Below are positions 12,221-14,887 of a stretch of 64,000 nt of DNA, piece after piece. Within the stretch, counting starts at the first letter, position 1. The number at the start of each line of letters is the position of its first letter. The translations under genes and the position numbers were made by a program. Under the pieces are notes generated by a model. It worked only from the letters and a program-made list of their open reading frames with translations. It was not told the origin of the DNA and searched no databases. Source of the DNA: Chitinophaga pinensis (GTDB lineage Bacteria; Bacteroidota; Bacteroidia; UBA4408); NCBI GenBank assembly GCA_945861665.1, contig CAMAVS010000009.1, positions 1 through 64,000 of the forward strand, written 5' to 3'.

Positions 12221-12295
12221 TGCTAAGCAAAGATAATTATTTATTGCTGCACTATTTTGATTCGCATCGTCTTCTTTTTGTTTTACTTTTGTTGT

Positions 12296-13060
12296 ATGCA
12301 AATTCGCCTTTCTGTTGTAATTATTACTTTTAATGAGGAAAAAAATATCGGAAGATGTTTGGACTCTATAGCTGGAATTGCAGACGAAGTGATTGTGCTG
12401 GATTCATTTTCTACCGACAAAACAGAAGAAATTTGCAAACAAAAAGGAGCTCGCTTTTTTCAGCACGCATTTGATGGACACATTGAGCAAAAAAACAGGG
12501 CAATTACCTATACATCTTCTCCCTATGTTCTTTCGCTGGATGCGGACGAAGCCCTTAATGAAGTTTTAAAACAATCCATCTTGTCTGTAAAAAATAATTG
12601 GCAGGCAGATGGTTATTCAATAAACAGACTTACCAATTATTGCGGACAATGGATAAAACATTGCGGTTGGCACCCCGATACAAAGCTTCGTTTATGGGAT
12701 AGCCGTAAAGGTGCTTGGGGGGGAGTAAACCCACACGACCGTTACGAAATGAAGGACGCTGACACAAATGTAAAGCACTTGGAAGGTGATATTTTACATT
12801 TTAGTTATTATTCGATAGAAGGGCACATCAAACAATCGAATTATTTTGCCGAAATTGGAGCAAAAGCATTATTCAAAAAAGGAAAAAAAGCCACTCTGAT
12901 TAAGCGTTTTATAAATCCTCTATTTCGTTTCTTCCGCGATTACATTATAAAGCTTGGGTTTCTGGATGGCTATTATGGTTTTGTTATTTGTAAAATAACG
13001 ATGCAGGGTACTTATCACAAATATGCCACATTAAAAGAATTAGAAAAAAAGGTTTATTAA
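12296..13060 (+). CDS. Family 2 glycosyltransferase, LPS-core type
   Basis: A GT-A fold glycosyltransferase of 254 residues. The N-terminus LSVVIITFNEEKNIGRCLDS is the nucleotide-sugar-binding strand, and LDADEA (81-86) supplies the DXD metal-binding acidic residues. Then comes WWG-like GAWGGVNPHDRYE and a basic C-terminal part (KGKKATLIKRF) that often docks to the membrane. The group is related to WaaE/KdtX-like LPS-core transferases, which fits the lipopolysaccharide gene (O-antigen ligase) just downstream on the other strand. The ATG at 12296 fits the conserved N-terminus; the frame extends to 12257 but adds only hydrophobic residues. Confidence 0.9.
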   Translation: MQIRLSVVIITFNEEKNIGRCLDSIAGIADEVIVLDSFSTDKTEEICKQKGARFFQHAFDGHIEQKNRAITYTSSPYVLSLDADEALNEVLKQSILSVKNNWQADGYSINRLTNYCGQWIKHCGWHPDTKLRLWDSRKGAWGGVNPHDRYEMKDADTNVKHLEGDILHFSYYSIEGHIKQSNYFAEIGAKALFKKGKKATLIKRFINPLFRFFRDYIIKLGFLDGYYGFVICKITMQGTYHKYATLKELEKKVY

Positions 13061-13110
13061 AGCTCATATTTGTACTGAATTTCACTTTAAATTAATCTAG
13101 CTATTTCACT

Positions 13111-13260
13111 GTGAGGCTTTGCCTCACGCTCCAATTACTTTTTTCTTGATAAAAAAGTAATCAAAAAATCAAGAGCAAACGCCATTTTCAGGTCTTCGTT
13201 TTGTCGCACAAGCCCAGGCCATCAATTTCCACGAAACCTGAAATTCGCACCGTTTGCTCA
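13111..13260. repeat. Multi-hairpin intergenic repeat-like element
   Basis: The gap holds nested inverted repeats: GTGAGGC/GCCTCAC (13111-13127), a perfect 11-bp stem ATTACTTTTTT/AAAAAAGTAAT (13134-13161) with a CTTGAT loop that can also pair with ATCAAG at 13168, and a long-range pair GAGCAAACG (13173-13181) / CGTTTGCTC (13251-13259) enclosing TTTCAGGT/ACCTGAAA. The layout resembles dispersed palindromic elements I recall from Bacteroidota intergenic regions. It may also end the two convergent transcripts. Confidence 0.55.
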
Positions 13261-13301
13261 AAAGCTCCCCGCCTTTCTAACAATATCACAATAAACTTCA
13301 A

Positions 13302-14858
13302 TTAGCTCTTCTTATTCAATCCCATAAATAGAAAAAAGGAATTGAAAAAGGCAAAAAAGGTAACTCCTGCCTGGGTCTCCAATGTATCCTCATTCAGCAT
13401 TGAAAAACTTGCTGTAATTAAAAATAAAACAAAAAGAGAATAGTATTCATTTTTGGTAAAACGCAGTGGATAAAACATACTAAACAAAAACCATATCATT
13501 CCCAAAATGCCAAAAGTAATGGCAAAAGTGAGGTATTGGTTGTGAGCTCTCAAGCGGTATTTTTTTTCTAGGGGTGTTTTTATCTCCTCGTATTTTTGCA
13601 AGGTTACATCGTTTACATCACCTGTGCCTACACCCAACATCCAATTTTCTTTTAATACTACTTTTGCAGCCTTCAAAAACTCAAGTCGCATTGTAATGGA
13701 ATGTCCACTAGGGTTTTCACCGGCCTGATAACTTTTAAATTCCCACAAGGTTTGATAAATATGAGCTTCCAAGCCATTAAAATCGGCATACTTATAGTTG
13801 GTTACCCCTCGCTCAATTTTTCTTATATCATCCTCACTCAATGAGGCTATGCTTGCAGAATCTTTTTTCAAGCCTTTTGAAGTAAGGTAACGAAACAGGG
13901 TGGTTTAAATAAATTGTCCTTTTTTATCATGCAAGACATAATCTATCTCACTTCTTTTGTTCCAGGCTTTTTCCACCTCAAGCCAACAAATATTCCAACC
14001 TATATAATAACCATTTTCTGTTATTTTTTGCTCCGAAAAGTGAGTGTATACATTATTATTGGAACTTATTTCCCCCATTTGCTGATCCTTTTTCGGTTCG
14101 AGTTTAAGGTAAATGCTATACACATAAAAACTTCCAATGAACGGAACAAAAAATAGAACTGACAAATAAATCCATCTACGTATACACCTTTTCTCGTTCC
14201 AAACCACATTTAATACATATAATACAAAAGCGCAGGCTACAATAATTATCCCGGTAAACGATTGAAGTATAAACAAGAAAATAGTTAACCAAACAGTTAC
14301 AATTGCAAGTATATATTTTTTATTTTTACTCGTAGCATTTCGAAACAAGTATATATTCGAGAAAATTGCGATACAAATAAGAAGGGCAAAACGTATGTGA
14401 GAAATAAAGATCGACATTCGCCTAAAGTCCTCAACTTTTACTTTATAAATGCCCAATACTACCAACATACTAATAAAGGAAGCGAGCAACACAGAAGCAA
14501 CGAATACTTTCAACAAGACACTAATTTGCTTACTGCTTAAAATTGTTGAAGTGGATAATAATAATGGAAAAACCAAGAGAGGCATCTTAATACGGATGTC
14601 GTTTAAAGCATAATTAAAATTGCTTGTATACAAAAGCCCCAATAAATGCAAAAAGAAAACAGAGCTTAAGATAAGCGCCAACCTGTTTTTGAAAAAGGAA
14701 CGAAATTTTTCGGCTAAACGTCCCTCAATAATCCAGTTTAGAAGTAGAATTATTTGCGAAACACTCATTAAAAACTTAGATAGAGGCAATCCTATCAATA
14801 AAAGCATCAATGAATAAAAGTAAATTTGTTCGTGTAAAACTTCTCTTTTTATAACCAT
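13302..14858 (-). pseudogene. O-antigen ligase (Wzy_C family), interrupted by one in-frame TAA
   Basis: This 518-codon frame encodes a polytopic ligase/polymerase: an N-terminal half with about nine membrane helices (codons 1-317) and a C-terminal half with the Wzy_C signatures GVGTGD and RAHNQYLTFAI. Codon 318 (13905-13907) is TAA, with no shift of frame. The residues on both sides (GQFI before; TTLFRYLTSKGLKKDSA after) join into the sequence usual for Bacteroidota homologues. A sense-to-stop change such as AAA to TAA is the simplest cause. The enzyme would join O-antigen to lipid A-core, so loss would give rough LPS, unless there is readthrough or the base is a sequencing error. Restart at the TTG near 13871 would give only the C-terminal half. 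Confidence 0.88.
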
Positions 14859-14887
14859 AGGTTATAAGTAACGGAAAATTATATACT

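Follow-up and report, generated by a model that had tools for sequence, protein, structure and literature searches.

The systems described closest to the locus considered here are the ligase WaaL, two surface glycan genes of Bacteroidota and the oligosaccharyltransferase PglL. In WaaL (PMC10920833), Arg265 binds the lipid diphosphate, Arg191 is likewise a diphosphate-binding residue and His313 is proposed to activate the acceptor. Deletion of the waaL homologue Ccan_15430 of Capnocytophaga canimorsus is described in PMC5156936 as removing the O-chain from the LOS and as being tolerated, so that a viable loss of O-chain is possible. A nonsense mutation in wbpB of Porphyromonas gingivalis HG66 is reported together with a demonstrated absence of A-LPS (PMC4031482). 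For the protein O-oligosaccharyltransferase PglL, PMC3643930 states that simple sequence searches cannot separate PglL from WaaL.

The window, that is the whole stretch of DNA that was analysed, covers positions 1 to 64,000 of contig 9 in a genome of 2.49 Mb (13 contigs, estimated 99.8% complete). A ligase-type gene was delimited on its minus strand by frame and homology at 13302-14858, running from an ATG at 14858 to a terminal TAA at 13302-13304, and its complete frame of 518 codons plus the final TAA was confirmed to be interrupted by one mid-gene stop, an in-frame TAA at codon 318 (13905-13907, minus strand). Codons 318 and 519 are the only stops in the frame, and a search over the 1,557 bases for a second lesion found no further stop or frame change. 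The description given in the earlier note, of a 518-codon frame with a single in-frame TAA at codon 318 and no frame change, proved exact. Base-shuffled copies of 13302-14858 held on average 39.3 in-frame stops with a minimum of 19 (2000 shuffles) and the other two frames of the stretch hold 42 and 35, so the stop-free frame on either side of codon 318 is beyond chance. In this genome adjacent ORFs often share a frame by chance: ~323 kb yielded 26 same-frame pairs flagged as possible breaks, counting the ligase, and 2 frame-shifted ones. The case for a broken gene is therefore made by homologues and not by ORF layout. In both tblastn and MAFFT alignments homologues continue through the break, bearing out the further statement that the sequence flanking codon 318 fits them. 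An NCBIfam search gave no match.

The state of the gene was compared in 59 relatives (60 genomes with the window's own), a set that holds no genome of the same genus. In 38 of the 59 there was one match over almost the full length of the ligase, at 30-47% identity, and 37 of these 38 contained no stop. The single TAG in the remaining one (G051), considered as an internal stop, proved to be that gene's own terminal stop. Within the same family a match over almost the full length was found in six of seven genomes, the seventh (G002) being cut by a contig end. A break at codon 318 as a family trait, raised by partial matches in G002, G030 and G043, was rejected when the fetched pieces were seen to hit a contig end; this check covered the first pieces of the G030 and G043 matches. 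Loci in named genomes were found with an alignment as query, a single-protein query having given none, and were almost all from Bacteroidota. More than 450 query residues were spanned without an internal stop in 80/80 of these named orthologues, which are the best 80 of at least 575 relatives, a selection that favours intact copies. A residue is present at the stop column in all 22 other rows of alignment A1 and in all 74 of alignment A2, which was built from 74 of the 80 named loci with six left out; in A2 column 318 is a sense residue throughout, and a variable one with 13 kinds of residue.

At E 1e-60 the ligase was matched by 166 of 295 genomes, the window's own included. Among the 150 match rows listed for these 166 genomes, an internal stop occurred in the window's gene and in one other copy (G063, locus L121), where it is a TGA near residue 31 of the matched stretch; a further copy, that of G089 (loci L129/L133), is not among the matches listed and carries a frame break. 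Given one internal stop besides the window's among the matches listed, and a frame break outside them, loss of the ligase-type gene looks rare, scattered and not tied to one place. Judged by these alignments, the gene is whole in nearly all of the relatives' copies examined.

The assignment of the gene draws on family searches, a structural model and an orthologue profile. The part after the stop (codons 319-518; 13305-13904, minus strand) is still conserved and holds the Pfam Wzy_C match, with a score of 35.1 bits where the cut-off is 31.7. The whole read-through protein scored 31.0 bits, slightly below the cut-off, with the match confined to its C-terminal part, and in a six-frame Wzy_C search of the genome the broken gene scored 32.5 bits, above the cut-off. 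All 74 A2 orthologues matched Wzy_C at E 0.01, and PglL_A (PF15864) was absent from the seven families that they matched at this threshold. The WaaL fold was established on an AlphaFold2 model of the intact orthologue L039 (pLDDT 90.6, pTM 0.86) and not on the broken protein. This model aligned with WaaL 7TPG, a structure from Cupriavidus metallidurans, over 376 residues with a Z of 29.8 and an rmsd of 4.1 (Foldseek E 1.4e-6). The next structural matches were the SEDS-type proteins FtsW and RodA at Z 12.7-13.6 (FtsW 13.6), and archaeal oligosaccharyltransferases reached only Z 5.1-5.2, a value that excludes nothing. Searched against the Protein Data Bank at E 0.01, the orthologue profile retrieved 7TPG and 7TPJ alone, which are one sequence, at E 6.4e-8.

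In the profile alignment Arg265 and His313 of 7TPG correspond to Arg391 (codon at 13686-13688, minus strand) and His439 (codon at 13542-13544, minus strand), neither of which varies in A1 or A2. The position of Arg191 pairs with Thr202, in a stretch whose score of -1.1 bits is too weak to trust; Arg156 is invariant in A1 and may stand in place of Arg191. Taken together, the broken gene is probably a member of the WaaL/Wzy_C ligase superfamily (GT121-like). Of the name O-antigen ligase used in the earlier note, the ligase-type part is supported by the Wzy_C match and the predicted WaaL fold, but strict O-antigen ligation is not readable from sequence. The orthologues (L039-L118) form a long ligase subfamily of ~520 residues that is common in the class, carries a long additional segment ahead of the conserved Arg and may lack an Arg at the WaaL Arg191 position. 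Searches of open-licence papers yielded no report of this gene or its stop, and no substrate test for the long-loop subfamily was found in them.

Intact orthologues are predicted multi-helix inner-membrane proteins in which a long periplasmic loop bears the Arg and the His, and they would be expected to move glycan from a lipid carrier to an acceptor at the periplasmic face. In the interrupted gene translation would end inside this loop, before Arg391, His439 and the last membrane helices. The translated part of 317 residues (13905-14858, minus strand) contains hydrophobic spans, which extend to about residue 251, as well as the initial portion of the loop. On the L039 model the stop falls at residue 313, where a helix of the periplasmic loop begins. 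As both conserved residues and the last membrane helices all lie beyond the stop, the 317-residue product should be inactive. A single nonsense mutation would in this way have inactivated, very recently, a chromosomal ligase-type enzyme of the WaaL/Wzy_C superfamily.

The age of the lesion was evaluated from conserved columns on both sides of the stop, each intact orthologue being scored for deviations in the same way as the broken gene to serve as a control. Among the A2 columns that are at least 95% identical the broken gene keeps 22/22 upstream and 31/31 downstream of the stop. In downstream columns conserved at 90% it deviates at 0/41 (intact-row median 2.4%), at 80% it deviates at 5/56 (8.9%; intact median 5.4%), with 24 of the 74 intact rows deviating as much or more, and at 70% it deviates at 10/76 (13.2%; intact median 12.3%), a level reached or exceeded by 32 of the 74. 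In A1, with the two most divergent rows left out, deviations at 90% columns numbered 6/53 downstream and 3/37 upstream; the downstream value is near the top of the range of the intact rows (0 to 13%), which is not repeated in A2. Overall these counts suggest no clear excess of changes in the broken gene. None of the 31 near-invariant downstream sites has changed, which sets a 95% upper limit of ~9% on the change accumulated per such site since the origin of the stop. At all thresholds applied, the sequence past the stop matches intact orthologues in its conservation, so no onset of decay is visible, and with both flanks conserved as in intact copies the lesion is either young or absent from the organism. 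The wording very recent in the earlier note is therefore upheld, there being no second lesion and no excess change at conserved positions on either side of the stop. A real and very recent nonsense mutation of the ligase-type gene is the probable explanation, and normal conservation past the stop is also what is expected from an error or from a gene that still functions.

A base-calling, assembly or consensus error, including a minority strain variant in a metagenome consensus, would leave the gene whole in the organism, and this is a possible though rather unlikely account of the stop. It predicts exactly the normal conservation seen on both sides. It is further favoured by the division of the genome into 13 contigs, by the named relatives being almost all metagenome assemblies, and by the two further broken copies, each found in one assembly (the TGA of G063 and the frame break of G089). 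Against it, no family was found split across the break in any of 11 flagged ORF pairs scanned with Pfam, out of 27 other than the ligase. These pairs come from a sample of ~323 kb including the window, with 251 ORFs of at least 100 aa by a greedy call. In four of the 11, one side or both went unmatched in Pfam; one of these was settled, its homologues ending at the end of the first ORF, and the other three stay undecided. Long-read errors gather in homopolymers and the stop lies outside any homopolymer, which also counts against an error. The lack of a split family in the scanned pairs disfavours a very error-rich assembly, but a single base is not cleared thereby.

Returning to a real nonsense mutation, its effect on the enzyme could be avoided if the stop were read through, or if two halves were made separately and assembled into a working enzyme, which we consider very unlikely. 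Both halves are normally conserved, and in-frame TTG codons occur from codon 330 onward, as such an arrangement would allow. However, none of the 33 tRNA genes found in the genome reads a stop codon (150 of 184 first-look candidates were scored for typing), and the RNA surrounding the stop shows no more stable folding than shuffled sequence (z -0.62). The first in-frame ATG past the stop is codon 390, adjoining the conserved Arg391, and judging from the model a second chain would begin in the periplasmic loop with no preceding membrane signal. An interruption at codon 318 is seen in none of the 80 named orthologues, the best 80 of at least 575. A genome that reads TAA as sense was rejected as well, there being no TAA-reading tRNA among the 33 and TAA serving as an ordinary stop in the window. 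In a greedy call that counts the two ligase pieces, it terminates 40 of the 56 window ORFs of at least 100 aa.

Phase variation is frequent among surface-glycan genes, and the earlier note had offered phase-like variation as an explanation; reversible switching is nonetheless highly improbable here and the suggestion was dropped, as no short-unit tract or invertible element explains the stop. The repeats within 13300-14860, one imperfect direct and four imperfect inverted repeats of 14-20 bases, all lie away from the stop, and the nearest base run, six T on the plus strand at 13920-13925, would shift the frame. The frame past codon 318 is already correct, and slippage would not produce a stop of this kind. 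An old pseudogene has a negligible probability: bacterial genomes do accumulate nonsense-broken genes and the A1 downstream deviations (6/53) are on the high side, but the 1,557 bases hold no other stop or frame change and 0/53 near-invariant sites have changed.

Upstream of the ligase on the same strand are genes for an EamA transporter and triosephosphate isomerase, and downstream lie a convergent family-2 glycosyltransferase (12257-13060, plus strand), whose listed TTG start is probably too far upstream, and then MeaB. Two neighbouring proteins carry type IX secretion signals, and from these and the nearly all-Bacteroidota origin of the named orthologues the genome is taken to belong to that phylum. 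Of the 60 named loci whose flank reaches 3 kb or more, 26 have a glycosyltransferase homologue 3' of the ligase, 24 of them in convergent orientation; MeaB is present in 18 of the 54 whose flank reaches 4 kb or more. The recurrence of these two genes beside the ligase suggests that the gene sits at an inherited chromosomal locus. The neighbouring glycosyltransferase was also tried as a baseline for the frequency of stops and rejected, as many rows had stops and many matches fell in the over-extended N-terminus of the query.

A 211-base intergenic repeat was observed between the convergent glycosyltransferase and ligase genes (13085-13295). It has 13 matches in the genome including itself, three of the others being ~89% identical over nearly the full length, and it folds far better than shuffled copies (z -5.26). 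Of the 39 relatives searched for it, 11 share a core of ~40 bases. Rfam on the window returned tRNAs only and no family for this repeat.

The genome contains four other Wzy_C genes, in all of which the match region is stop-free. Contig 1 carries three of them, and two of these are located within or next to a cluster containing a flippase and several glycosyltransferases. The inference of the earlier note that O-antigen has been lost consequently goes too far, since four stop-free Wzy_C genes remain, two of them with a flippase and glycosyltransferases. A glycan-assembly group of the same genome (L167, 9782-18802) encodes two Wzy_C proteins, 414 and 440 residues long, together with a flippase and several glycosyltransferases. 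Shorter Wzy_C-like proteins accompany the long ligase in many relatives' genomes.

The finding is an ordinary one: a conserved ligase-type gene in a copy that is either freshly broken or misread. Surface-glycan genes are commonly lost by nonsense mutation and a broken ligase alone matters little, although it has some use as a marker of recent change at the cell surface and could alter phage sensitivity. A phenotype should not be deduced from one codon in a single assembly. Of more interest is the conserved ligase subfamily, common in the class, to which the broken gene points. A further and bolder reading, that the cut gene belongs to a widespread long-loop Bacteroidota subfamily which is not an ordinary O-antigen ligase, making this genome a natural null of an unknown glycan-anchoring step, is tentative and on balance doubtful. 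Such a distinct subfamily is suggested by the extra periplasmic structure, the perhaps missing Arg191, the adjoining glycosyltransferase and the accompanying shorter Wzy_C-like proteins.

Compared with the known systems, the gene resembles WaaL (PDB 7TPG; CAZy GT121; Pfam PF04932, Wzy_C) in its predicted fold over 376 residues (Z 29.8), in its Wzy_C match and in having a conserved Arg and His at the Arg265 and His313 positions. It differs in being ~100 residues longer (518 against 413), in having ~115 profile positions between the two aligned stretches that are without counterpart in 7TPG, in the Thr at the Arg191 position, where the alignment is very weak, and in being cut. With Ccan_15430 of C. 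canimorsus it shares being a Bacteroidota ligase gene, though the subfamily may differ, whereas the loss there is an engineered deletion. The wbpB lesion of P. gingivalis HG66 is like the present one a natural nonsense mutation, there in a Bacteroidota LPS pathway, but affects a different gene. PglL belongs to the same Wzy_C superfamily and is set apart by PglL_A, which the 74 orthologues do not match.
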